In this document: piece by piece, positions 8,976 to 30,275 of the stretch
How positions within the stretch are numbered: position 1 is the first letter of the stretch
Layout of the letters: every line of letters starts with the position of its first letter
Virus record (IMG/VR): IMGVR_UViG_3300025138_000212
Span: 1-30,275 of that record
DNA: 30,275 nucleotides
DNA from: a virus
Strand: one strand, 5' to 3'
Translations under genes and position numbers: made by a program
The notes under the pieces: model-generated
Databases searched by the model: none
Seen by the model: the letters and a program-made list of their open reading frames with translations, nothing else
Told to the model about the DNA's origin: nothing

Positions 8976-9475
8976 TAAAATGGTATCCTATCTCTTGCTT
9001 GTAATTGTTGTAGATCTGGATCTTCAAATGAGGATCCTTTGCTAAGTCCTATTGTAACAAAACCTTCGGATGTTCCTGTAAATTTAACTTTTACATTTGC
9101 ATTACCACATTCAATACCGTAACCAGCATAATCAAAACTACCTTGTCCTGTACCAAGTACTAACAAATTAGCATGATCACCTTTTTTACCATCAAACTCT
9201 CTACTAATAGTTGCAATACCAGATAGAGAATAAGTAACACTTGTAATAGTTAATCCATCTCCAGAACTACCTGCTTTGTTGAATGCTTGTAATGAATGAC
9301 CATTTGATGCTTTGTACAATACATTACTTGTTCCAGAGACATTAGCACAAATATTACCTGATGCATCAACTTTATTATGTACGCAATGTACTACAACATT
9401 TCTTTTTTGACACATAAGAATATTAGCATCACCGATATTAAGAAATCTTGTACCTCTATCGTTTGCAGCAGCCAT
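8975..9475 (-). CDS. Unknown protein between core genes and gp21, probable head component
   Basis: The 166-residue product is not recognised. It is mostly short alternating hydrophobic and polar stretches typical of an all-beta protein (RNVVVHCVHNKV, ANLLVLGTG, VKVKFTGTSEGFVTIGLS), with a C-terminal tail ending in R-D-R-I-P-F. There is no signal peptide or membrane segment. It is placed in the head-assembly operon between two presumed core proteins and the protease, and its stop overlaps the gp21 ATG. Genes in this slot of marine T4-like phages are often virion proteins of unknown role, so a capsid decoration or inner-head role is possible but not shown. The ATG has a GAGGATAACAG leader, with the preceding gene's TAA inside it. 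Confidence 0.6.
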   Translation of the reverse strand: MAAANDRGTRFLNIGDANILMCQKRNVVVHCVHNKVDASGNICANVSGTSNVLYKASNGHSLQAFNKAGSSGDGLTITSVTYSLSGIATISREFDGKKGDHANLLVLGTGQGSFDYAGYGIECGNANVKVKFTGTSEGFVTIGLSKGSSFEDPDLQQLQARDRIPF

Positions 9476-18306: not shown

Positions 18307-19056
18307 TTACATTCTAAAAAAGTCAACTGGTTCTTGGTATTTTGATTCTACTTCTTGTTCTAAACTTTGTATTTCTTGAATAGCTTCATCATATATAATT
18401 TGACCATTCAAGGTTACTCCTCCTGGCATTTGAACACCATTAAATTTTTTAAGATTATTACCCCATTGTTTTTTCATTTGTGCAGTAACATATTTTTTCA
18501 AATATAAATCATTATATACATCAGTATATGTATCTGGGTTCAATATTCTATAACACTCAACCAATATAAATTCACCGATAGATGTATCCATTTCCCAATC
18601 CATATCAATATGCAATCTATTTTGATGTCGATTAAATCTTACAGGCTTTTGACCCACTAGCATTTGATTAAGTAAAGATAATTGATTTTGTACTTGCACA
18701 TAATATACAATATCAGTTGATTGTAAAGAATAAATATCATTTAATAATATTTGATATCTAACATCAAACAAATCAATGCCCCTTGTTCTTGAATCAAAAG
18801 GCAATACTCTTTCTACACCAATAATTGCATCAGTAAGTTCAATATATCTATTTGTTCTATCATCTGCTGTAACTTGATGTTTTAAATATATTCTTTCAAC
18901 ACCATCAAAATGAAACTGTTGAAAGAATTGTAAACTTAATTCTAATATATCTTCGTCTTGATCCGGATCAGTATTTATTTCTATAACAGGATCGCCTAGT
19001 TGTCTTTTGGCATATGCTATAAGTTCAGTTCTTGAAGCTGGTCTGCTTGTACTCAT
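18307..19056 (-). CDS. 13: Neck protein gp13
   Basis: The 249-residue protein is the second neck component. Conserved features are A-K-R-Q-L-G-D-P-V-I-E-I-N at about 15-27, then D-E-D-I-L-E-L-S-L-Q-F-F-Q-Q-F-H-F-D-G-V, V-L-P-F-D near 85, and the C-terminal K-K-Q-W-G-N-N-L-K-K-F. In T4, gp13 (309 residues) binds the portal and helps join head and tail; the marine form is shorter. It overlaps the upstream BppU-like gene by four bases (ATGA), so the late promoter at 19413 probably serves the whole run from there to gp17. Confidence 0.94.
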   Translation of the reverse strand: MSTSRPASRTELIAYAKRQLGDPVIEINTDPDQDEDILELSLQFFQQFHFDGVERIYLKHQVTADDRTNRYIELTDAIIGVERVLPFDSRTRGIDLFDVRYQILLNDIYSLQSTDIVYYVQVQNQLSLLNQMLVGQKPVRFNRHQNRLHIDMDWEMDTSIGEFILVECYRILNPDTYTDVYNDLYLKKYVTAQMKKQWGNNLKKFNGVQMPGGVTLNGQIIYDEAIQEIQSLEQEVESKYQEPVDFFRM

Positions 19057-19391
19057 CTAGTAATCTCCGGCGTAACTATAACTATTCCTTCTGCTATTCT
19101 TTCAACTTCGTGCGGAGCAGCGTCTGCTACTAATTCAATATCATAAAGATATCTAGCAGCTGTGACATTAGTTGTAGTATTTGAATTCATTGTAAGAAAT
19201 ACATTTCCATCTGTTCCACTTGGTATTGTTGCAACAAATGCAAAACTATTTGAAGATTTAACTGATCTTCTAAATTGTGAACGAGCAGTATGTCCAGAGA
19301 TATCTCTAACAGTACCTGTAGTATCCTTTATAGTGACATTTGCTTTGAAAGTAGTTCCTTGATCTAGGAACAAATTGAAAATAGTTGCCAT
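19053..19391 (-). CDS. BppU-like small structural protein
   Basis: The 112-residue product has F-L-D-Q-G-T-T-F-K-A-N-V-T-I-K-D near its start, then D-I-S-G-H-T-A-R-S-Q-F-R-R, V-F-L-T-M-N-S-N-T-T, and Y-L-Y-D-I-E-L before the end. This is the pattern of BppU-type N-terminal domains (an Ig-like beta sandwich used in upper baseplate and fibre proteins). Small one-domain versions are frequent beside the neck genes in marine T4-like phages, with no proven role. A GGAG site lies before the ATG and a late promoter lies 22 bases upstream. It overlaps gp13 by four bases. Confidence 0.7.
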   Translation of the reverse strand: MATIFNLFLDQGTTFKANVTIKDTTGTVRDISGHTARSQFRRSVKSSNSFAFVATIPSGTDGNVFLTMNSNTTTNVTAARYLYDIELVADAAPHEVERIAEGIVIVTPEITR

Positions 19392-19428: not shown

Positions 19429-21321
19429 TTATACAACTTTTATTATTACAACTCCCGATCCACCATTTCTACTTGTGTCTAGTAAAGTATCTGCAGTTGC
19501 TCCGTTTTTAGTAGAATTACCTCCACCACTTCCTCCCCCTGTAGCCTGGGCTCCTGCTTCTGATGGTTTGTTTGCAGGAGCTGGTTCTCCTTGTCCAGGG
19601 AACATATTTCCACCTCCATTACCACCTCCCCCTAATCCACCTCTACAAATATTTGGTCTGTTAGATAAATCATTTGCAGGAGCAGGATTTGCTTCAACAC
19701 CTGCTGTATAAAATGAACCACCTCCTCCTCCACCATAATATCTTGATCCAAGGCCAGCAATAGTATTAATAACACCATTACCACCTCTTGCTTGATTAAC
19801 ACCTGGATTACCAGAGAATCCTGTTTCACCAGCACCTCCACCTCCTCCAGCAAAATAATTAGGAGCAGCAGGTGATTGAGCAGCTCCTCCTGTATTTCCA
19901 GCACCACCTGCAGAAGGTCCAAATGCTGGACCAGCATTACCTGATCCTGAAGCACCTCTTCCACCTAATGGATTAGCAACTATTGAAGAAGTTCCGCCGC
20001 CTCCACCATATGCATCAAGACTAAATGCAGTTGTATTTCCTCCTACAGATCCGTATGAAATTGGAGAAGGATGATTTGTTGGAGATCCTGCACCTCCACC
20101 TCCAATAATTATAGGATAATTAGTACTTGCTGAAACTGGATGACCAGAAGCTGCAAAATAACCACCTCCTCCTCCTCCTGCACCTCTACTAGCACCACCA
20201 GCACCACCACCTCCAACAACGAGATAATCAATAGAAGTAGCAGGACCAGAGTTCCAAACTCCAGAATTAGTAAATGTAATAATTTCATCTGCAGAAGCTA
20301 CAGCTTTATATTTAAAAATAACTATACCACCTCCACCACTTGCACCACCTCTTTGACCTTGACTTTGATAACCGACAGTACCTCCTGCACCACCTCCAGT
20401 TGCATTTAATCCATTGCCTCCTTCTTGATAAGGACCAGAAGGAGCAACTCTTCCACCATTCCCTCCACCACCTAACCCACCAATGCCTGAATCATGTGTA
20501 ATAGTTGGAGTAGATACACCTCCGCCTCCTCCACCTCCACCGTAATAAGCAGAAGTTCCGGATATAGTTGTAACAACACCATTACCTCCATTACCACCTC
20601 CTGCATTTGGATAACTATGAGAATCAAATCCATTTTGTGCACCGCCTCCACCTCCACCGCCTCCACCATATCTAGTAGAACCAGGTGCAAGAGCTCTGCC
20701 ACCAGCCCCACCTTGTACATTTATTGCTCCGCCATTTGGAGTTGCAGTATCAGTTGGAGCTGCTGTTAGTGCTGGGAAGTTTCCAGGAGTTCCACCTTCA
20801 GGATAACCAGGTGCAGGTACTGTACTACCACCTTTGCCTCCTGCTCCACATCCTCCTCTATGACCTAATCTTCGAATATCTCCAGGGCCACCTGAACCTC
20901 CACCACCCCCATTTGTACCAATTGCTGTACTTGCAGGAGATCCATATGGACTAACGCCAGCTATTGATGAACCAAAACCATTAGAGCCTCTAACTATAAG
21001 AGGTGGTCTAAGTCCTGCACCTCCTGCTCCAATAGTAATTGTTAAAGTTTGACCAGGAGTTACAGTCAATCCAGTACCAATTCTAACTCCACCTGCTCCA
21101 GCGCCCCCCAATCCTTTAACACCACCTACACTACCACCCCAATTATCTCCACCACCACCTCCTCCTCCAGCTACAATCAAATATTCTTCAATTTCAGTAA
21201 CACCAGCTGGAACTGTAAAAGTGCCTGATCCATAAAATATGCTAGCAACATCAGATAATGATATACCAACACTACCAAATGCTTTAAGTGATCCTAAACC
21301 TAGAGAAGAAAGAATTGGCAT
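19429..21321 (-). CDS. Glycine-rich tail fibre/adhesin A
   Basis: The 630-residue protein has a 27-residue leader (MPILSSLGLGSLKAFG) and two copies of a module. Each copy starts with a short beta strand pair (SGTFTVPAGVTEIEEYLIV near residue 32; NSGVW ... SIDYLVV near 350-370) and then runs into long G-G-G-G-X-G-G blocks with scattered N, P and Y. The copies end in a strand such as G-G-I-V-I-F-K-Y-K or G-S-G-V-V-I-I-K. Such glycine-rich modules resemble the polyglycine-II adhesins (gp38 type) of T-even phages and the glycine-rich fibre domains of marine phages, so a receptor-binding role is likely. It follows the stalk protein at 21328-22029, with which it probably pairs. No signal peptide function is proposed. 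Confidence 0.82.
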   Translation of the reverse strand: MPILSSLGLGSLKAFGSVGISLSDVASIFYGSGTFTVPAGVTEIEEYLIVAGGGGGGGDNWGGSVGGVKGLGGAGAGGVRIGTGLTVTPGQTLTITIGAGGAGLRPPLIVRGSNGFGSSIAGVSPYGSPASTAIGTNGGGGGSGGPGDIRRLGHRGGCGAGGKGGSTVPAPGYPEGGTPGNFPALTAAPTDTATPNGGAINVQGGAGGRALAPGSTRYGGGGGGGGGAQNGFDSHSYPNAGGGNGGNGVVTTISGTSAYYGGGGGGGGVSTPTITHDSGIGGLGGGGNGGRVAPSGPYQEGGNGLNATGGGAGGTVGYQSQGQRGGASGGGGIVIFKYKAVASADEIITFTNSGVWNSGPATSIDYLVVGGGGAGGASRGAGGGGGGYFAASGHPVSASTNYPIIIGGGGAGSPTNHPSPISYGSVGGNTTAFSLDAYGGGGGTSSIVANPLGGRGASGSGNAGPAFGPSAGGAGNTGGAAQSPAAPNYFAGGGGGAGETGFSGNPGVNQARGGNGVINTIAGLGSRYYGGGGGGSFYTAGVEANPAPANDLSNRPNICRGGLGGGGNGGGNMFPGQGEPAPANKPSEAGAQATGGGSGGGNSTKNGATADTLLDTSRNGGSGVVIIKVV

Positions 21322-21327
21322 AATTAA

Positions 21328-22029
21328 TTAAGCGTGTTTTGATTGTGCAACTAACATTGTGAATGTTGTATCTGCAGTTTTTATTATTGAGAAAGTGTAA
21401 ATATCTATTGAATTAGCATTGCCAGCACTGAAAGCTGTACCACCTTGATATTTTGGAGTAATAGCTGAGTTATCTACTTTAAATGCATTTATGTAGTATG
21501 GAGAACCAGTATTTGTAACCATGACAGCAGCTGATATAGTATTACCAATTGTCATAATAGAATTTAAAGTAGTTGATCCATCAGCTCTAAAATTAATTGT
21601 AAAATTAGTATCTGCTGCAGCTGTACAATAATAAACTGAATTAGTTAACAAATCAATATTTGTAGTAGCATCAAAAGCTGCTGTTAATATTGATGTATCT
21701 TCTTGTAAATTTACTAATGGAGCTATTTTAGCTGATGAAACTGCATCAGCAGCTATTTTTTCATTTGTAACATTAAGAGCAGCTATTTTAGCAGTTGTAA
21801 CATTAAGAGCAGCTATTTTACCAGTTGTTACATTAAGATCTTTTATTTTGAGTGTTTCTACAGCATCTGTTGCTACATTAGCAGCATTGACAGGAAATTT
21901 TCTAACATTAGTATTTATTTTGTCATTAGTAACAGCCACATCTGCTATTTTAGCAGTAGTTACTATTCCATCTGATAAATCATCTGCGTTTAAAGGTTTA
22001 GTGGTCGGAGTAAATCCTATGTAAGCCAT
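21328..22029 (-). CDS. MAYIG-type fibre stalk protein A
   Basis: The 233-residue protein opens with MAYIGFTPTTKPL and then carries a run of about ten-residue repeats ending in K-I (T-T-A-K-I-A-D-V-A-V, L-N-V-T-T-G-K-I-A-A and so on, residues 20-105), which in phage fibres form a trimeric beta-helical or coiled stalk. The C-terminal half (about 110-233) is a beta-rich head ending in I-D-I-Y-T-F-S-I-I-K-T, similar to the end of the protein at 25442-26440. It is probably a fibre or fibre-connecting subunit for the glycine-rich protein that starts 7 bases downstream. It has its own late promoter and an AGGAT ribosome site. Confidence 0.78.
   Translation of the reverse strand: MAYIGFTPTTKPLNADDLSDGIVTTAKIADVAVTNDKINTNVRKFPVNAANVATDAVETLKIKDLNVTTGKIAALNVTTAKIAALNVTNEKIAADAVSSAKIAPLVNLQEDTSILTAAFDATTNIDLLTNSVYYCTAAADTNFTINFRADGSTTLNSIMTIGNTISAAVMVTNTGSPYYINAFKVDNSAITPKYQGGTAFSAGNANSIDIYTFSIIKTADTTFTMLVAQSKHA
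21751..21840 (-). repeat. Three tandem 30-base repeats in stalk protein A
   Basis: Units 21751-21780, 21781-21810 and 21811-21840 differ at only a few positions and encode the ten-residue unit (A-A-L-N-V-T-x-x-K-I). In-frame 30-base copies allow stalk length change by slippage or recombination. Confidence 0.9.
21831..21897 (-). repeat. Dispersed repeat shared with 25951-26017
   Basis: Sixty-seven bases match 63 of 67 at 25951-26017 in the other stalk gene, with the last 44 or so identical. They encode F-P-V-N-A-A-N-V-A-T-D-A-V-E-T and the start of the K-I repeats. Confidence 0.9.
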
Positions 22030-22062
22030 ATAAAATCCTATAATAATATTTTAAGTATTTAT

Positions 22063-22070
22063 TATTTATA
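22063..22070 (-). promoter_or_regulatory. T4-type late promoter for stalk A and fibre A
   Basis: A perfect TATAAATA lies on the minus strand in the 43-base gap after the oxygenase gene. The leader ends in AGGATTTTAT before the ATG at 22029. Confidence 0.85.
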
Positions 22071-22072
22071 AT

Positions 22073-22768
22073 TTAATTACTCACTTGTTGTAAAACATTT
22101 CCCGATTTTCCTGGCGCAATTTCTTTTTTAGGTTTTAACATATTCTTTGGTGTTGCATCACCTCCAGTATGTAATCCTGTTAAAGAGTCATCATCACCTA
22201 TATAACCTTTTAAAAATGTGTTAAAAGATAAACTTATTCTTGTTTGGTCAGCTTCTGTTGGTGCAACCCAGTGCTCTAAACTTGATGGAAATAAAACTAA
22301 CGATCCTGTTTTAACAGGAAACCACCAGCTTTCTGAATTATATAAATTCCAATCTCTTGGAGGGTGAATCTTTATAGTGTGATATGTTTTTGGATGAAAA
22401 AAGAAAATTTTATCTGTTTCTACTTCGGCTTGCACATAATAAACACCAGATATAAAACTATTTGGATGTCTATGTTTATGATGCCACTGACCTTTTTTAG
22501 TGTAGTTTGCCCAAGATTGTGTAACATAAGGTTCTACATCAAACTTTGGTTTATATATTTCATCAAAGTATTTCTCAACACATTCATTAATCCATTGGTT
22601 GAGATTAGATAATTTTTTATCTCTTAAAAGATATCTATAATGACTTGTAGTATTGCCTTCATTTGGTTTTTCATCTAAATTTAGAAGAAACTTTTTTTCT
22701 GATTCTGTTAAACCTTCTTCATGATTAAACCATCCTACAGGGATGGGGAACAAATTGTTTAATTCCAT
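22073..22768 (-). CDS. 2OG-Fe(II) oxygenase-like protein (first of a pair)
   Basis: The 231-residue protein opens with L-F-P-I-P-V-G-W, typical of the putative 2OG-Fe(II) oxygenase group often called 2OG-FeII_Oxy_5. Candidate iron ligands are H99 and H101 in W-H-H-K-H-R-H-P-N-S-F (with S-G-V-Y-Y-V following, the usual strand), and H166 in F-P-S-S-L-E-H-W-V. R177 in Q-T-R-I-S-L-S-F-N fits the 2-oxoglutarate carboxylate ligand. These enzymes hydroxylate proteins, nucleic acids or small molecules; the substrate here is unknown. The gene starts at the stop of the chaperone-like gene (TAATG). The last 45 residues are polar (Gly, Lys, Pro) and probably disordered, beyond the catalytic fold. Confidence 0.83.
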   Translation of the reverse strand: MELNNLFPIPVGWFNHEEGLTESEKKFLLNLDEKPNEGNTTSHYRYLLRDKKLSNLNQWINECVEKYFDEIYKPKFDVEPYVTQSWANYTKKGQWHHKHRHPNSFISGVYYVQAEVETDKIFFFHPKTYHTIKIHPPRDWNLYNSESWWFPVKTGSLVLFPSSLEHWVAPTEADQTRISLSFNTFLKGYIGDDDSLTGLHTGGDATPKNMLKPKKEIAPGKSGNVLQQVSN

Positions 22769-23124
22769 TATATAGATCCACCTTTTCCTTGTTTATCATC
22801 TTGTTGAGAATCCATAGCCTTTTCAATTTGTTTAAATTGACCAGTCATTTCTTTTATTTGTTTTTCTGTCCAAACTGTTGGTATTGAATCTTCAAAATCT
22901 TTGATCTTCTGCATTGTTTCTTCAACATCTTTCCAAGTTGGTTGAGGTCTATCATCATCCCAACGAGAAAAAGATGAATTGGATATTTCCCATTTTGCTC
23001 CAGGTCTTAATAAATGCATTGCTGTATTAACACCATAAAGTCTGTATATTTTTTGTTGTGAAGCTTCAGATAGTTCATTTTCATCAACTGGTTTACTAGT
23101 ATCTATTTTCTTTTTCTTTACCAT
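22768..23124 (-). CDS. Tail-fibre-assembly-chaperone-like small protein
   Basis: The start used is the ATG at 23124 (MVKKKKIDTSK), 118 residues, because it has AAAGGAG at good spacing. An ATG at 23154 would add ten residues and overlap the upstream gene. The middle has L-R-P-G-A-K-W-E-I then S-R-W-D-D-D-R-P-Q-P-T-W-K-D-V-E-E, a pattern close to small phage fibre-assembly chaperones, in which 'LRPGA' and 'P-T-x-x-E-V/I' recur. The rest is helical and the tail is Gln/Asp/Lys-rich. It lies between two oxygenases in the fibre region. The chaperone role is inferred from motif and position. Confidence 0.6.
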   Translation of the reverse strand: MVKKKKIDTSKPVDENELSEASQQKIYRLYGVNTAMHLLRPGAKWEISNSSFSRWDDDRPQPTWKDVEETMQKIKDFEDSIPTVWTEKQIKEMTGQFKQIEKAMDSQQDDKQGKGGSI

Positions 23125-23134
23125 TTTTTCTCCT

Positions 23135-23716
23135 TTACCAAGCCCAAGATACATAAGAATAACGAGAACCTTTTGTTACAGGTTTTACTTCATGAGGATA
23201 CATGAAATTGCTAGGAAAGATCAACAGTGACCCTCTTTTTAATTCAATTTCTTGATCTTCCCACATTATTAGTTCTCCTCCTTCATAATCATCATTTAAA
23301 CAACCAAGCAATGATAATGTTGGAATTCCTTTTCTGTCTCCATCAAACATAGAATGTATATGATCACAATGGAGTTTCATTTGTGTAGATTCATCATATT
23401 TGTTAAATCTTAACTGAGAATAACCACTCCATCCACTAAACCAATCGTGGACTTTAGCTCCAGCAACATCAGGAAGTTCATTAAGATATCTCGTTAGACC
23501 ACTGTGTAATTTCTCTTGAATTTCTTGTCTTTGTTTTATGTTTGACCAAGATACAGATAGTTCATTATCATAACTAACATGATCGCCTGAACCTACTTGA
23601 TAGAATTGATGAGTTGACCACTCTGCTTTTTTTAGAGCTTTTACTGCTTTTTTGCAATAATTTTCATCTAAAAAGTTTTCATAATTACCAACATACTTTG
23701 TTAAATCTTTTTCCAT
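23135..23716 (-). CDS. 2OG-Fe(II) oxygenase, prolyl-hydroxylase-like (second of a pair)
   Basis: The 193-residue protein has the double-stranded beta-helix pattern of prolyl-4-hydroxylase-like dioxygenases. Q-L-R-F-N-K-Y leads into the metal motif H116-C-D118 (HXD), then T-L-S-L-L-G-C-L-N, Y-E-G-G-E-L, G-S-L-L-I-F-P-S-N-F, the distal ligand H175 in Y-P-H-E-V-K-P-V, and R185 in K-G-S-R-Y-S-Y-V-S-W as the 2-oxoglutarate ligand. The complete HXD-H-R set argues that it is an active enzyme. The acceptor is unknown; free proline, protein proline or nucleic acid are all possible. It is not close in sequence to the oxygenase at 22073-22768, so the two belong to different subfamilies. The next gene starts 11 bases on. 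Confidence 0.88.
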   Translation of the reverse strand: MEKDLTKYVGNYENFLDENYCKKAVKALKKAEWSTHQFYQVGSGDHVSYDNELSVSWSNIKQRQEIQEKLHSGLTRYLNELPDVAGAKVHDWFSGWSGYSQLRFNKYDESTQMKLHCDHIHSMFDGDRKGIPTLSLLGCLNDDYEGGELIMWEDQEIELKRGSLLIFPSNFMYPHEVKPVTKGSRYSYVSWAW

Positions 23717-23748
23717 TATATAACCTTACAATAATATTATATTTTTTA

Positions 23749-25440
23749 CTACTGCGCTGTAAGTTTTATTACTATAAATCCAGAACCACCATTACCTGCA
23801 TCCCATCCATCTCCAGGGGCTGAACCACCACCTCCTCCGCCACCACCTCCTAAGCCTTGAGCAGCATCAGGAGCACGTTGAGTTATATTGCTAGAAGGTC
23901 CATATCCTCCATTAGCACCACCACCAGCACCACCAGCTGTAGCTGAGTTTGGAGCTCCAGTTCCTCTACCACCACCTCCACCTCCAGCATAAGTTACTGG
24001 TGTTCCTGTTAATGGTGAAGCTACACCATCACCACCAGCACCTTGAGACGTTCCACCAGCATTTCCAACTTCACTTGCTCCTCCTCCTCCTCCACCAACT
24101 CCTGCTGGAGTACCAGGAGAAGGTCCTCCAGTAGATGCTCCACCAGCATTTCCTTGTGGAGAGCTTCCAGCACCACCAGGCTGAGCAGGAGCGTAACCGC
24201 CGCCTCCACCTCCTGAACCTCCTGCTACTCCAACAGAAGAACTACCTCCACCTTCTCCACCACCTCCTCCACCAGTAGAAACTATATTAGTAATAGCAGG
24301 ACTAGAAATTGAGGAATCAACTCCATTTACACCATTAACACCATCTGTATTTTTTCCACCATCTGAATGAGCAGCACCTCCTGCACCAACAGCAATAGTT
24401 AAAACATCACCTGCTGATACTGAAACACCGGATGCTGTTCTAAAACCACCAGCGCCACCACCACCTCCATGATTACCTCCACCACCACCTCCACCAGCGA
24501 TTACTAAATATTCCATTTTAGTAATACCATCTGGAACAGTAATTACTCCTGAATTTGCAAAACTGAATACTTGATCTAATGCTGATGATGTATATTTTAC
24601 AATTACAATTCCACTACCACCTGTACCTGAAAGTATAGAAGCATCACCAGCACCACCACCACCTCCACCAGTAGCTTGTGTTCCATTCTGAGCAGTAGGA
24701 TTAGGGGAATGGCCATTATCTTTTCCACCAGACCCTCCACCTCCAGCACCACCTGCTCCAACAGCTGCTGTTCCACCACCAGAATCTGCTCCTCCTCCTC
24801 CACCTCCTGCATAAGTTACGGGTGTTCCTGAAATTGAGTTTGCAAGACCTGCACCACCTGCTCCACCAGTAGCTTCAGAGTTACCTCCAGCAGCATTTGC
24901 TCCACCTCCTCCACCACCAGTACCGACAGCTCCAGGACTTCCAGTACCACCAGCATTCCCTGTTGGAGAAGTTCCAGCACCTCCTGCGTATCCTTGATGA
25001 GCTCCACCACCACCAGAACCACCAGCTCTACCAGCTTTTCCGAGACCTCCTCCACCTCCTCCACCTAAAGAAGTTAATGTAGAAAAACCACCTGGCGCAG
25101 CTATAGAACTAGATCCACCATCATTTCCATTGCTTGTTGATGTATTAGTTGATAATCCAGCTCCTCCAGCTCCAACTGTAATAGTTAATGTGCCTCCAGC
25201 TGGAACAGAAACTGTTGCTGTTCTATAACCACCTGCACCTCCACCACCTCCAGTATGTTGACCACCACTGCCTCCACCACCAACTATCAAGTAATCAATT
25301 TCAGATACATCAGCTGGCAATACTAAAGTACCTGAAGCAGCAAAAGATCTTATTAATGTTTGTTGTAAACCACCACCAGCAGCTCCTTTGTTGAATCCAA
25401 ACGTCCCTAATGAAAACGCAAGTGCACTTAATCGTGGCAT
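23749..25440 (-). CDS. Glycine-rich tail fibre/adhesin B
   Basis: The 563-residue protein begins MPRLSALAFSLGTFGF, echoing the MPILSSLGLGSL start of fibre A, and has the same two-module plan. A-A-S-G-T-L-V-L-P-A-D-V-S-E-I-D-Y-L-I-V opens the first module near residue 35, and A-N-S-G-V-I-T-V-P-D-G-I-T-K-M-E-Y-L-V-I opens the second near 290. Each runs into G-G-G-G-x-G-G arrays and ends in a strand such as S-G-I-V-I-V-K-Y or S-G-F-I-V-I-K-L. It has no cysteine. It follows stalk protein B by a single base. It is probably a receptor-binding tip or adhesin by analogy with gp38-type glycine-rich adhesins. Confidence 0.82.
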   Translation of the reverse strand: MPRLSALAFSLGTFGFNKGAAGGGLQQTLIRSFAASGTLVLPADVSEIDYLIVGGGGSGGQHTGGGGGAGGYRTATVSVPAGGTLTITVGAGGAGLSTNTSTSNGNDGGSSSIAAPGGFSTLTSLGGGGGGGLGKAGRAGGSGGGGAHQGYAGGAGTSPTGNAGGTGSPGAVGTGGGGGGANAAGGNSEATGGAGGAGLANSISGTPVTYAGGGGGGADSGGGTAAVGAGGAGGGGSGGKDNGHSPNPTAQNGTQATGGGGGGAGDASILSGTGGSGIVIVKYTSSALDQVFSFANSGVITVPDGITKMEYLVIAGGGGGGGNHGGGGGAGGFRTASGVSVSAGDVLTIAVGAGGAAHSDGGKNTDGVNGVNGVDSSISSPAITNIVSTGGGGGGEGGGSSSVGVAGGSGGGGGGYAPAQPGGAGSSPQGNAGGASTGGPSPGTPAGVGGGGGGASEVGNAGGTSQGAGGDGVASPLTGTPVTYAGGGGGGRGTGAPNSATAGGAGGGANGGYGPSSNITQRAPDAAQGLGGGGGGGGGSAPGDGWDAGNGGSGFIVIKLTAQ

Positions 25441-25441
25441 G

Positions 25442-26440
25442 TTATGTGAAGTTAGTTAATGATACGAGAGTTTGATATGATGAACCACCAGTTTTTACAA
25501 CACTGAATGAATATACATCAAGATTTGATTTACCTTCTGTTATATATCTAAGTGTGCCAGCTGTATTTGAACCTGTGCCTGTTAATCCAGAAAACATAAA
25601 GTTATTGGTTGCGCTACCATCTATTTGAACTTTAGTAATATTTGCTTGTGTGGCAGCATTATTAGTAATCATTACTACAAAAGATGTTGCATTTCCAACT
25701 GAAACACCCTTCATGTTAATAAAGTTAACAGTATGTTCTGATGATTCATGACTGTTAGCAGTAAAATATACTACACCATTATTTTGATTATCAACAGTTA
25801 TAATTGGTTTATCACCACCTTTTACATTACCACCATAAAGATTTGCTTGTTCTTTAGTTGCACCCATAAATGTAGCTGTGCCTCTAACAATAATATTAGG
25901 AGATATCTTTAAATTGGTTATAGCATCATCTGCTATTTTAGCAGTAGTGACATTAAGATCTTTTATTTTAGCAGTTTCTACAGCATCTGTTGCTACATTA
26001 GCAGCATTGACAGGAAAAGTTCCAGTTGTTAGTTTGGCTTGTGTGACTTCGCCATCTTTTATTTGTGGTGTTCCAACTGCATCAGCAGCCAGTTTAGTAT
26101 GAATAACAGCATTTGCTACTAACTTTGCAGATGTAACAGATAAATCATCAGGAGTATTAACATTAACTACACCAGTTTCTCCTAATAAAATAGCAAAAAA
26201 AGTTGCATTTGTATTGGGCGCTTCAGTAAATGTAATTCCAGATGATGAAGTTGTATATGCAGTCGTAGGTTCTTGTAAAACACCATCAATAGAAACTAAT
26301 AACTGTTGAGCACTTTCTATAGTTACATCAGATGCATTTGATTGAACGGCAAATGTAGTAGTAGAATCATTGAAACCAGATGAAATATCATCTAATTTCT
26401 GAAACTTACCTGTAATTGGGGATTTACCAATATAAGCCAT
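25442..26440 (-). CDS. MAYIG-type fibre stalk protein B
   Basis: The 332-residue protein opens MAYIGKSPITGKF. It has an N-terminal beta domain (about 20-95, Q-L-L-V-S-I-D-G-V-L-Q-E-P, T-A-Y-T), a form seen in many marine phage fibres, then K-I/K-L decad repeats (about 100-185) like those of stalk A. A C-terminal head ends in L-D-V-Y-S-F-S-V-V-K-T, matching stalk A's I-D-I-Y-T-F-S-I-I-K-T. It shares a 63/67-base DNA stretch with stalk A. The extra N-terminal domain distinguishes the two. The ATG directly follows the TAA of the previous gene, so it is translated by coupling. Confidence 0.8.
   Translation of the reverse strand: MAYIGKSPITGKFQKLDDISSGFNDSTTTFAVQSNASDVTIESAQQLLVSIDGVLQEPTTAYTTSSSGITFTEAPNTNATFFAILLGETGVVNVNTPDDLSVTSAKLVANAVIHTKLAADAVGTPQIKDGEVTQAKLTTGTFPVNAANVATDAVETAKIKDLNVTTAKIADDAITNLKISPNIIVRGTATFMGATKEQANLYGGNVKGGDKPIITVDNQNNGVVYFTANSHESSEHTVNFINMKGVSVGNATSFVVMITNNAATQANITKVQIDGSATNNFMFSGLTGTGSNTAGTLRYITEGKSNLDVYSFSVVKTGGSSYQTLVSLTNFT
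25951..26017 (-). repeat. Dispersed repeat shared with 21831-21897
   Basis: This is the stalk B partner of the repeat at 21831-21897. Only four adjacent positions differ, so the two stalk genes are recent relatives or exchange DNA here. Confidence 0.9.
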
Positions 26441-26878
26441 TTAGATTAAAACCCATCCTTTTGTTTTTGGATCGTCAGTATCAGCAGCATATACATGTTC
26501 AAGCCATATGTAACTATTACCAGCTGTCATTTGATCATCAGTGAGAGTAGGTTGTGTTATAGGACATTCAAATGCACAAGAAGTTGTATTCATAGACCAA
26601 GAAGTCCAGGCTGTGTTAGAAAGTGGATTAACAAATGCACCAGATACTGCAGCTGATGTATTTAAGTTTGCCCAGAATTCATATCCAATTCCTGCATATC
26701 TTTTTCTAAAACTTGAATTATAACTAGTTTGTTTCCAAGTTCCACTAAATAATTTTTCACAAAATGCAGCGCCAATGTGCTCTTTTTCATTTCCAGAGGC
26801 GTCTGCTGTATCTCTATTGCCGACAACAATTACTCTTGTTACTACATTGCTGTCATTAATCTCAGCAAAATGAGCCAT
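26441..26878 (-). CDS. Small conserved fibre-region protein (MAHFAEI family)
   Basis: The 145-residue protein starts MAHFAEINDSNVVTRVIVV and continues with H-I-G-A-A-F-C, G-T-W-K-Q-T-S-Y-N and R-K-R-Y-A-G-I-G-Y, a combination I associate with small proteins encoded among fibre genes of cyano- and pelagiphages. It lacks a signal peptide or membrane helix. There are three cysteines, two of them (C-A-F-E-C) close together near residue 103. The function is unknown; a fibre tip, adaptor or structural role is plausible from context. A late promoter and an AGGAG site precede it, so it opens a new transcript that continues into stalk B. Confidence 0.65.
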   Translation of the reverse strand: MAHFAEINDSNVVTRVIVVGNRDTADASGNEKEHIGAAFCEKLFSGTWKQTSYNSSFRKRYAGIGYEFWANLNTSAAVSGAFVNPLSNTAWTSWSMNTTSCAFECPITQPTLTDDQMTAGNSYIWLEHVYAADTDDPKTKGWVLI

Positions 26879-26933: not shown

Positions 26934-29165
26934 CTACCCTGTAATCTTTATGACAACAATTCCTGATCCTCCTGAACCACCTTCAGCACCTGCATGGCCC
27001 ATTCCTCCACCACCGCCTCCTGTACCAGCTGTTCCGTCCGTTGCTGCAGAAGGAACTCTTGAACCTGCTCCTCCACCTCCAGCACCACCATTTCCAGCTG
27101 TAGTTCCACCAGTTGGGTTACTAACTCCTCCACCTCCACCACCACCATAAAATACTGGAGTACCGGTAATAGGATTTGCAACACCTACACCACCATCTCC
27201 TCCTTCTTGATTAGTACCAGGAACAGAGTTTTCACCTACTGCACCAGCTCCTCCACCTCCTCCTCCATTTACGAAAGATCCAGTTCCACCATCATGACCT
27301 TGTAAAGCACCTGTATCACCTGCTACGGCTAAACCATTTGTTGGTGCTGCACCATAAGCAGAACCTCCGCCAGAAGATCCAGCTTTGCCTGGAATATTGC
27401 CTGGTGTGGGACTTTGACCAAGCATTCCACCTGCACCTCCACCCATTCCAAGACTTGTTGTTACTCCAAATTGACTAGAGCTATTGCTACTACTTATAGA
27501 AGAATTTGAACCTGATAAAGCTGGATAAGTGGGAAAACCAGCTCCACCAGCTCCTATAGCGACTGTTAATAATTCATTAGTAGAGACTGAAGTTGACCCA
27601 GTTTTTACACCACCTCCACCACCTCCTCCTCCACCACCAGAACCGCCTCCAGCTCCTCCACCACCTACTACAAGATAATCAATGGATTTAGCACCAAAGT
27701 CATTTTTCCATACACCAGACGCTTCCATTGAAAATACTCTATCACTATTTTTCTTTTTAAATTTAATGAATATTATGCCGGATCCTCCACCACCACCTGG
27801 ATCTTGAATAGCACCACCACCTCCACCACCTCCAGTATTAGCTACACCTGATCCACCAGCAGGTGAACCTCTGTTAACAGTATCGTTAGCTCCATCCCCA
27901 GCACCACCTCTAAATTCACTAAACTCATGAGCATTACCACCTTTACCACCTCCAGGAGATGTACCAGTAGGTCCATCACCACCTCCACCGCCTCCTGCAA
28001 ATATTTGAGAAGTTCCTGTTATACTAATTGTTATTCCATTACCTCCATTGCCACCTCTAGCAGGATCTGGTGCTGAACCAATACAATTGCCACCTACACC
28101 ACCAGCTCCACCACCACCTCCTCCAGCATAGGTTATTCCATTCCAACTTCCACCAGCAAAACCTTGTGAGGTTGATGTCTCGCCTGCAGCAGTTACTCGA
28201 GTTATAGGCAATGAATTTCCCATAATATTAACTCCACCACTTCCATTTCCTCCTCCACTACCTCCAGATTGACCTCTTGGTGTTCCATATGAACCGCCAC
28301 CGCCACCACCATGTGATTTAATTGTTATGTTTGCAAGAGTATCAGCTGCACCACCCATACTTGCTGATCCACTTATTGGATGGTTTGTGCAATAGTAATA
28401 AAGTTGAGGTGCAGGTGTTGCTACTTGTAATTGAACTCTAGAACCTGGAGTTCCTGCTGCTGTTGATCCTGTAGTTCCTTCTGAGTGACCTGTAGCTGAA
28501 GGTTGATTAGTTGTTACGCCAGTGTCATAGGCAGTAGCAGATGGTCCTCCTGGTGTAAGTTCTGATGAAGAAAATCTAAATGGATGTCCACTGTTCAATG
28601 GATGTGATTGATCAAATCTGTATGTTGATCCTTCATATAATTTTAAAGTTTCTGCTTCTACATTGGCAGTTACACCTTCAAATTCATTAACAGTTTTTAC
28701 ATAGTATCTATTGCCTGATCCTGGCGAAACAGCTGCTCCAACAGCTACATAATATAGAACATTGGCTTCTGTTCTAAATGCTGATGCTTCACCATTTGCA
28801 CCAGCTACTGAAGGAGTACCTGGAATTCCAGCTCCTCCCCCTATTTCAACAGGATATATTTTACCTGGTATAACTGGCATACCTGCACCAAATCTTACTC
28901 CGCCACCGCCACCGCCACCTCCTGCATCTGTTGCGCCAGCTCCACCACCACCAATTACAAAATATTCTGCAATCTCATTAACATCAATTGGTACTTGAAA
29001 TGAACCAGAACCTGTGAATTGTAATAAAACATCAAAATCAATTGGCCAATTACCTTGTGATGCAGCATTTAATTGCTGTCCAAGTGTAAACATACCACTA
29101 TTAGTACCAAACTTTGAAGTAGTAAATTCTGTTGATCTAATTATTCCGCCTGTATATCTACCCAT
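26934..29165 (-). CDS. Glycine-rich tail fibre/adhesin C with cupredoxin-like insert
   Basis: The 743-residue protein has a distinct N-terminus (MGRYTGGIIRSTEFTTSKFG, residues 1-45), then two glycine-rich modules opened by G-S-G-S-F-Q-V-P-I-D-V-N-E-I near residue 53 and A-S-G-V-W-K-N-D-F-G-A-K-S-I-D-Y-L-V-V near 480. Inserted in the first module at about 136-275 is a non-glycine-rich beta domain with F-E-G-V, L-K-L-Y-E-G-S-T-Y-R-F-D-Q-S, H-P-F-R-F and Y-Y-Y-C-T-N-H-P. H194, C259, H262 and M270 are placed like the ligands of a type 1 copper site. The protein ends in I-V-V-I-K-I-T-G. The module-2 junction shares near-identical DNA with the next upstream fibre. AGGATAGAA precedes the ATG. Confidence 0.82.
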   Translation of the reverse strand: MGRYTGGIIRSTEFTTSKFGTNSGMFTLGQQLNAASQGNWPIDFDVLLQFTGSGSFQVPIDVNEIAEYFVIGGGGAGATDAGGGGGGGGVRFGAGMPVIPGKIYPVEIGGGAGIPGTPSVAGANGEASAFRTEANVLYYVAVGAAVSPGSGNRYYVKTVNEFEGVTANVEAETLKLYEGSTYRFDQSHPLNSGHPFRFSSSELTPGGPSATAYDTGVTTNQPSATGHSEGTTGSTAAGTPGSRVQLQVATPAPQLYYYCTNHPISGSASMGGAADTLANITIKSHGGGGGGSYGTPRGQSGGSGGGNGSGGVNIMGNSLPITRVTAAGETSTSQGFAGGSWNGITYAGGGGGGAGGVGGNCIGSAPDPARGGNGGNGITISITGTSQIFAGGGGGGDGPTGTSPGGGKGGNAHEFSEFRGGAGDGANDTVNRGSPAGGSGVANTGGGGGGGAIQDPGGGGGSGIIFIKFKKKNSDRVFSMEASGVWKNDFGAKSIDYLVVGGGGAGGGSGGGGGGGGGGVKTGSTSVSTNELLTVAIGAGGAGFPTYPALSGSNSSISSSNSSSQFGVTTSLGMGGGAGGMLGQSPTPGNIPGKAGSSGGGSAYGAAPTNGLAVAGDTGALQGHDGGTGSFVNGGGGGGAGAVGENSVPGTNQEGGDGGVGVANPITGTPVFYGGGGGGGVSNPTGGTTAGNGGAGGGGAGSRVPSAATDGTAGTGGGGGGMGHAGAEGGSGGSGIVVIKITG
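27681..27719 (-). repeat. 39-base dispersed repeat shared with 30038-30076
   Basis: It matches 37 of 39 bases at 30038-30076 and encodes S-G-x-W-K-N-D-F-G-A-K in fibres C and D, which points to duplication or recombination between the two genes. Confidence 0.85.
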
Positions 29166-29167
29166 TT

Positions 29168-30275
29168 CTATCCTGTAATCTTTATAACAACAATTCCTGA
29201 ACCACCATTAAAACCATTGCTAGTACTACCTTTTCCAGCACCTCCTCCTCCACTTCCGGAATTATCGTCTGCATTTGAACCATTTTGATCATTGCCTTCT
29301 CCATTACCACCCCCACCTATAGCTAATGGTGCTCTTGCACCTCTTCCATAAAATGAGTCATTATTCCTAATTCCTCCACCACCTCCTCCAGCATATCCTA
29401 CTGTTGAACCTGTTATTGCATTATTAATACCATTTCCTCCATCACCACCCATAGGACTTCCATATCCTATTGTAGGAGATGCTACTCCATTTGATAAATT
29501 TCCAATAAATCCTTCTTGAGCAGCTCCACCTCCGCCACCTCCTACTGTTTGATCATAGGCACCTGAACTACCACCACCACCATCTCCTCCTTTAAATCCT
29601 ACACCAGGCGAAGGTTGATTTGAAGCACCACCTATATATTTTGGAGCTCCTCTTGCAGGTTCACCCGCAGAACCTCCACCACCTGATCCACCGGCTTTAC
29701 CATTTCTTGCTTGATTTGGAAACTGGGTGGAAGCATCAGCATTAATTCCTGCACCACCTCCACCACCTATAGCATTAGCTATATTAGTAGATAAACCAAG
29801 ACTACTTTGTATTAAAGTTGAATTTGAACCATTAGCACCATCATTAGCATCAGCAACATTTGTGGAACCTCCTATACCAGTTCCACCGCCTCCTCCAGCT
29901 CCAACTGCAATAGTAAAATCTTGTCCTAATAATGAAATATCTTGAGTTCCACTTATATAACCACCAGCTCCACCTCCACCAGCACCACCTCTACCAGTCC
30001 CTCCTCCACCTCCACCACCAGCAACACATAAATATTCAATGGTTTTAGCACCAAAGTCATTTTTCCATATACCAGATCCTGTAAATGAAAATAATCTATT
30101 ACTATTTTTATTTTTGTATTTTATTACTACAATTCCTGATCCACCAGTTCCTCCTAAATGAGTCCCAATCGGTAGTGCGTATTGAGATCCACCACCTCCT
30201 CCTCCAGTATTTTCTGCACCATCTTGACCGTCATATGGTGAAGCACTACCACCATTACCTCCACCACCAACACCT
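29168..30275 (-). CDS. Glycine-rich tail fibre/adhesin D, N-terminus beyond right edge
   Basis: The frame ending at the stop at 29168 stays open all the way to the right edge, giving 368 visible codons; the start is outside the window. An internal ATG at 29452 exists but the glycine-rich frame continues unbroken above it, so it is not the start. Visible are the tail of a first module (G-V-G-G-G-G-N near the edge, ending G-S-G-I-V-V-I-K-Y-K), then the second-module opening T-G-S-G-I-W-K-N-D-F-G-A-K-T-I-E-Y-L-C-V-A, then G-rich arrays to the end I-V-V-I-K-I-T-G. This is the same plan and ending as fibre C, which starts only two bases downstream. It is probably a paralogous adhesin. Confidence 0.85.
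   Translation of the reverse strand, partial: GVGGGGNGGSASPYDGQDGAENTGGGGGGSQYALPIGTHLGGTGGSGIVVIKYKNKNSNRLFSFTGSGIWKNDFGAKTIEYLCVAGGGGGGGTGRGGAGGGGAGGYISGTQDISLLGQDFTIAVGAGGGGGTGIGGSTNVADANDGANGSNSTLIQSSLGLSTNIANAIGGGGGAGINADASTQFPNQARNGKAGGSGGGGSAGEPARGAPKYIGGASNQPSPGVGFKGGDGGGGSSGAYDQTVGGGGGGAAQEGFIGNLSNGVASPTIGYGSPMGGDGGNGINNAITGSTVGYAGGGGGGIRNNDSFYGRGARAPLAIGGGGNGEGNDQNGSNADDNSGSGGGGAGKGSTSNGFNGGSGIVVIKITG
30038..30076 (-). repeat. 39-base dispersed repeat shared with 27681-27719
   Basis: This is the fibre D partner of the repeat at 27681-27719 (37 of 39 identical), located at the junction between the two glycine-rich modules. Confidence 0.85.

Follow-up and report, generated by a model that had tools for sequence, protein, structure and literature searches.

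We examined the fibre locus of a 30,275-base stretch of viral DNA (hereafter the window), which is the whole of IMG/VR virus record IMGVR_UViG_3300025138_000212 and a fragment of a T4-like phage. The locus combines glycine-rich fibre genes with two genes for 2-oxoglutarate (2OG)-Fe(II) oxygenases, oxA and oxB, and a small gene between them, chap. An initial annotation described a duplicated stalk-fibre cassette split by this three-gene block. The association is real, but its structure had been misread: the locus is an array of modular adhesins in which one cassette varies between strains, joined to a constant block that is widely conserved and linked to fibres. Hydroxylation of the fibres is our leading candidate explanation.

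Gene content of the fibre locus

The T4-type late genes of the window run, in order, neck, sheath stabiliser, terminase subunits, sheath, tube, portal, protease, scaffold and major head protein, and the top relative of its terminase is that of Pelagibacter phage Mosig (50% identity). The fibre locus lies immediately upstream of the neck gene, a slot that fibres and several 2OG oxygenases also occupy in Mosig and HTVC008M. Among the closest known systems is the host recognition cluster of pelagimyophages and cyanomyophages (PMC7029224); the available text of that study describes glycosyltransferases and metabolic genes there, but no fibre-linked oxygenase cassettes. The best explanation of the region is a receptor-binding locus of a T4-like phage, in which an exchangeable fibre array accompanies a constant oxB-chap-oxA block behind p145 (26441..26878, minus strand, phrog_7759), a small protein found behind glycine-rich fibres. 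All of the open reading frames (ORFs) in the initial annotation were recovered at the same coordinates, on the minus strand.

The number of glycine-rich fibres had been underestimated, as there are four rather than two, with fibre C and the incomplete fibre D preceding the block. Fibre D (29168..30274, minus strand) is an open frame that runs to the window edge, its 5′ end lying outside. Fibre C (26934..29165, minus strand, 743 residues) has two stretches of the glycine-rich domain PF21722 (E 4.5e-20). Fibre B (23749..25440, minus strand, 563 residues, E 1.8e-44) consists of two modules that are tumour necrosis factor (TNF)-like and glycine-rich, and fibre A (19429..21321, minus strand) has 630 residues (E 4.7e-27). 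For fibres A, B and C the PF21722 match is far beyond the gathering score. The two-module plan described for fibres A and B holds, with two PF21722 stretches in each, and both begin MP-x-L-S as noted before. The predicted model of fibre B (mean predicted local distance difference test (pLDDT) 85) is a TNF-like beta-sandwich joined to a glycine-rich lattice. Its top PDB match in Foldseek is 7YPX, gp24 of cyanophage Pam3 (E 6.7e-6, target TM-score 0.48), followed by the Bxb1 tail-tip protein and the TNF-like and glycine-rich domains of ALK/LTK; a profile of 30 fibres also matches Pam3 gp24 by sequence (E 5e-5). The fibres are thus predicted to be tandem TNF-like and glycine-rich modules, like Pam3 gp24.

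The two oxygenases belong to different families, as the initial annotation had it. oxB (23135..23716, minus strand) is a PF13640 2OG-Fe(II) oxygenase (E 1.2e-14) in which H116, D118, H175 and a following arginine are conserved, the full HxD...H...R set. In profile comparison oxB resembles protein hydroxylases that act on proline or lysine, and also PiuC of the PKHD hydroxylases. oxA (22073..22768, minus strand) differs from these in belonging to the separate, uncharacterised PF13759/TIGR02466 family of 2OG-Fe(II) oxygenases (E 3.9e-23, TIGR02466 above the cut-off). Its HxH...H...R residues (H99-x-H101, H166 and R177) are invariant, and its profile matches two uncharacterised structures. The window's oxB and two other 2OG oxygenases (L487:10619-11188 and L231:10001-10600) also match PHROGs labelled 'DNA endonuclease' or 'DNA endonuclease V' (phrog_2297, phrog_274), labels that may be misannotations.

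The chap ORF opens at 23154, but its start is probably at 23124 because a Shine–Dalgarno sequence, AGGAG, lies right behind the oxB stop and ahead of the ATG there; this gives a protein of 118 residues (22768..23124, minus strand, phrog_21526, E 5e-16). A 20-nucleotide overlap of oxB and chap was consequently dropped as evidence of coupling, since the likely true start lies past the oxB stop. The chap stop nevertheless overlaps the oxA start (TAATG) and its ribosome-binding site touches the oxB stop, so the three genes appear to be coupled by translation signals, which we count in favour of the fibre maturation proposed below. The earlier label 'chaperone-like' has no clear family match behind it: the window protein has no Pfam match and its predicted model (pLDDT 65) has no match in the PDB. 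One AlphaFold alignment was made without three rows that came from annotated records. XkdW of Bacillus prophage PBSX (PF09636) gives weak matches among relatives of chap, in 3 of 24 with E 2e-4 at best, and matches the window protein neither by sequence nor by fold. In PBSX, xkdW adjoins a tail-fibre gene.

A strain-variable cassette and exchanged fibre bodies

Each of fibres A and B is preceded by a stalk gene. Stalk B (25442..26440, minus strand, 332 residues) opens with a head module (residues 1-86; phrog_18673, E 3.2e-32), and stalk A (21328..22029, minus strand, 233 residues; phrog_5906, E 1.1e-23) lacks this head of about 90 residues, the C-terminal part being common to both. Residues 23-228 of stalk A align with 122-327 of stalk B (35% identity, E 3e-18). 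The similarities that suggested a duplication are genuine: both stalks start MAYIG, and 63 of 67 bases are identical between 21830-21896 and 25950-26016, where 100 codon shuffles gave no more than 44.

Three closely related contigs were compared (L002, L003 and L004), and a scan with p145 added no further ones. From fibre D through fibre C to p145, L003 and the window agree at 98%; the fibre C counterpart in L003 is 100% identical, and its 627-residue fibre is 99% identical to fibre D over 368 residues. DNA homology then stops at 26183 and resumes at 23723. The intervening 2.46 kb (23724..26182), which holds the body of stalk B and fibre B, corresponds to 51 bp in L003 and is missing from L002 as well. 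An intact 88-residue ORF, the stalk B head alone, is left at the L003 site (9123-9389), and L002 is alike there. This stand-alone head ORF matches baseplate and tail-fibre families and may be either a functional cap or a relic. The more distant L004 has both cassettes; its fibre B has a single module and precedes an additional p145, and the L004 fibre A is 1,267 residues long.

The fibre bodies have also moved. In L003 the fibre in slot A shares 59% identity with fibre B of the window but only 38% with fibre A; it matches fibre B in DNA at 79% over 960 bases and is the closest relative of fibre B that we found. As it is nearer to fibre B than to fibre A, fibre bodies change slot. The genes and their order are as first described, but we reject a clean duplication of the stalk-fibre pair, because the head is missing from stalk A and the nearest fibre to fibre B lies in slot A of another phage. 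Cassette B is a strain-variable presence/absence insertion rather than a stable duplicate. The oxB-chap-oxA block is the constant element of all four contigs (L002 ends inside oxA), and fibre bodies and a whole stalk-fibre cassette are gained, lost and swapped around it.

The suggestion that the virion may carry two alternative adhesins is not borne out here: the fibres number four, are all co-oriented, and include one in a strain-variable cassette. An invertible fibre switch of the Mu Gin type was sought, and the window holds only one palindrome and one 21-nucleotide inverted pair (81%); there is no recombinase among its identified gene families, the window being a fragment of a genome.

Two further genes may be mentioned. 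Between fibre A and the neck gene lies p112 (19053..19391, minus strand), which matches phrog_1084 and phrog_3304, families of L-shaped tail fibre assembly (E 2.4e-21 and 4.4e-16). A QueE-like radical S-adenosylmethionine gene at 444-1346 (phrog_2076, E 4e-53) adjoins the late sigma factor gene and might be part of a DNA-modification pathway.

Linkage of chap and oxA to glycine-rich fibres

The genes chap, oxA and oxB served as queries against viral contigs, in which ORFs were then called and annotated with locally built profiles. Many of the scanned contigs are related to one another, so the counts that follow are non-independent observations. A cassette of glycine-rich fibre, chap, oxA and p145 recurs in many diverse contigs. 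Of 71 chap relatives away from contig edges, 60 lie right behind a glycine-rich fibre, and oxA and p145 mostly come after them; the window has oxB before chap instead. When loci are chosen by oxA alone, its immediate upstream neighbour is chap in 48, a glycine-rich fibre in 26, p145 in two and another gene in one, with two more at contig ends. oxA is thus directly behind chap, fibre or p145 in 76 of 77 testable loci, and a glycine-rich fibre is within two genes of it in 68 of the 77, compared with 111 of 858 other genes of the same loci. Loci from further seeds show the same cassette, and p145 relatives have a glycine-rich fibre at most 5 kb upstream in all 68 loci.

Annotated genomes carry the same genes in several arrangements. 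DSL-LC04 has fibre, chap, oxA and p145 in that order, and in ctNMl277, which lacks chap here, p145 and oxA accompany a fibre of one module. A glycine-rich fibre is followed by p145, chap and an oxygenase array in Prochlorococcus phage P-RSM4 and Synechococcus phages S-CAM8 and S-MS29, which are like the window in holding these genes together, and glycine-rich fibres are followed by oxygenase arrays in Mosig, HTVC008M and Pelagibacter phage HTVC023P. The synteny strongly supports a link of chap and oxA to glycine-rich fibres.

The presence of chap varies with fibre architecture, when the number of modules is judged from fibre length with 400 residues as the divide. Among 175 complete fibres beside oxA, chap accompanies 142 of the 143 with at least two modules and 3 of the 32 with one. 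In L059, the lone multi-module miss, a paralogue of oxA separates the fibre from chap; of the one-module fibres with chap, two (L040, L061) may be fragmentary, and L259 is the one genuine exception.

In most fibres of one module the C-terminus is extended by about 45 residues that end like FTAGTGSISW, and in multi-module fibres nothing follows the final strand of the last module. The extension looks like the first strand of another module (L163-L239 fibres). Pieces of the motif NTPxxSPSQGN, counted per 270 residues, are enriched about 2-6 times in oxA-linked over unlinked fibres, and the motif is weak in those of the window. As a candidate for the modified loop it is a lead only, since shared ancestry of the linked fibres could explain the enrichment.

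Proposed fibre maturation and competing explanations

The analysis shows the gene families, the modular fibre fold (as a prediction), the synteny, the presence and absence of cassette B and the body swap, whereas the action of chap, the hydroxylation of protein, the residues modified and any effect on adsorption are inferred. Once the fibre chain is made, chap would bind and hold a multi-module chain during folding, and oxA (here also oxB) would hydroxylate side chains in exposed glycine-rich loops before the trimers lock, giving the matured adhesin; co-translational maturation would be the simplest reading of the whole process. We judge it an even call that oxA hydroxylates fibre residues during chap-assisted assembly. 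The constancy of oxB-chap-oxA in L002-L004 while the cassettes vary counts in favour of such processing, as does the profile similarity of oxB to protein hydroxylases. By analogy, the idea that a gp24-type fibre needs an assembly partner is supported by Pam3, whose TNF-like and glycine-rich adhesin gp24 requires the small partner protein and chaperone gp25 for assembly (PDB 7YPX; PMC9608196). Pam3 differs from our system, in which the modules are tandem, several fibres are encoded and chap has no detectable homology to gp25; the available Pam3 literature does not mention an oxygenase (PMC9608196).

Several observations weigh against this interpretation. The case is built on genetics and synteny. 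The first motif of oxA, HxH, departs from the usual HxD/E of 2OG-Fe(II) oxygenases, and family, profile and fold comparison found no convincing homologue of known function for chap. On the oxA tree 11 changes of chap are needed, and the tree yields six supported independent pairs, of which an average of 4.9 agree with the module rule and none opposes it; with so few independent changes this support is suggestive and not significant. When loci are chosen by their fibres, oxA is not nearby in 28 of 63, and the 49 complete multi-module fibres divide into 29 with chap and oxA, 5 with chap alone, none with oxA alone and 15 with neither. Modification is therefore not essential for this fibre type, and we have dropped the idea that every multi-module fibre has chap for its chaperone; chap and oxA appear instead to be an optional, nested addition to the fibre type and no requirement. 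Only 24 of the 87 oxB-family proteins in the oxB scan are near a fibre, chap or oxA. Where examined, other oxB contexts are a recurrent replication module (hsp20, deoxycytidine monophosphate (dCMP) deaminase, DNA polymerase) or glycosyltransferase-like genes, and distant relatives of oxA in some cyanophages lie away from fibres, beside photosynthesis or nucleotide genes. Thus chap and oxA withstand the objection that these genes might be equally common away from fibres, but oxB largely fails it, and its reading as a fibre-specific enzyme is unsupported. The fibre link therefore belongs to a subfamily of oxA and to chap, not to all phage 2OG oxygenases. The replication-module arrangement is seen at L109:9464-10567 and similar T4-like loci, where an hsp20-like gene, oxB, dCMP deaminase and DNA polymerase stand together.

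These same contexts of oxB and distant oxA relatives favour a rival that we consider unlikely but worth taking seriously, namely that oxA and oxB serve auxiliary metabolism or DNA repair (2OG drawdown, nitrogen or iron physiology, AlkB-like repair) and lie by chance in a variable host-recognition island. This is the published reading as far as the available texts go: phage 2OG oxygenases have been interpreted as nitrogen and 2OG modulation or DNA repair (PMC3037559, PMC9146016), as iron uptake (PMC13184970), and as metabolic genes, often beside 'ferrochelatases' (PMC9599517, PMC11561400, PMC10436341). It leaves unexplained why oxA is directly behind chap or a glycine-rich fibre in nearly all oxA-chosen loci from very different contigs, and why chap varies with fibre architecture. 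Rather unlikely, in our view, is that chap, oxA and p145 are hitch-hikers with fibre genes in a recombination hot spot and do not act on the fibre. Fibre loci do recombine frequently, and five of the 49 multi-module fibres have chap without oxA; yet in 29 the two genes occur together and oxA never occurs without chap, and the order is kept across diverse contigs with differing flanking genes. It is most improbable that the enzymes modify a host surface molecule (for example the receptor or lipopolysaccharide) against superinfection and adjoin fibres since both act on the same receptor: the pelagimyophage island does hold glycosyltransferases thought to alter the host surface (PMC7029224), but the loci examined show no link to surface-polysaccharide genes and the dependence of chap on fibre architecture is left unexplained.

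The 'ferrochelatase' label itself looks unsupported. Proteins of this kind beside 2OG oxygenases (phrog_2954; L244:11702-12472, L487:9985-10626 on the minus strand, L488:7313-7933 and L241:9003-9593) have no Pfam match at E up to 1, ferrochelatase included, and phrog_3531 appears to fuse the phrog_2954 domain with a 2OG-oxygenase-like half.

Few unexplained 'metabolic' genes of marine phages are as numerous as those for 2OG oxygenases; nine copies are reported in one cyanophage genome (PMC9146016), and they are enriched in seasonal marine viruses (PMC11561400). We found no proposal of fibre hydroxylation in the open-access full-text literature, and novelty is provisional, as subscription journals were mostly outside the search. 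Returning to fibre hydroxylation, we tentatively propose, at slightly less than even confidence, a widespread and hitherto unrecognised class of adhesin maturation in which a 2OG oxygenase, dedicated to the fibres and linked to their genes, would hydroxylate TNF-like and glycine-rich fibres after translation, aided by a small partner protein for those of several modules. A subfamily tied to one fibre type offers a concrete, testable substrate and, if the proposal is true, would shift the role of these enzymes from host metabolism to virion maturation. Many 2OG oxygenases now listed as 'auxiliary metabolic' genes of marine phages would then be virion-maturation enzymes, and host-range prediction from fibre sequence alone would miss a chemical layer. 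The cassette occurs in many marine and freshwater phages, and its conserved arrangement suggests that such phages may chemically modify their own host-binding fibres during assembly.

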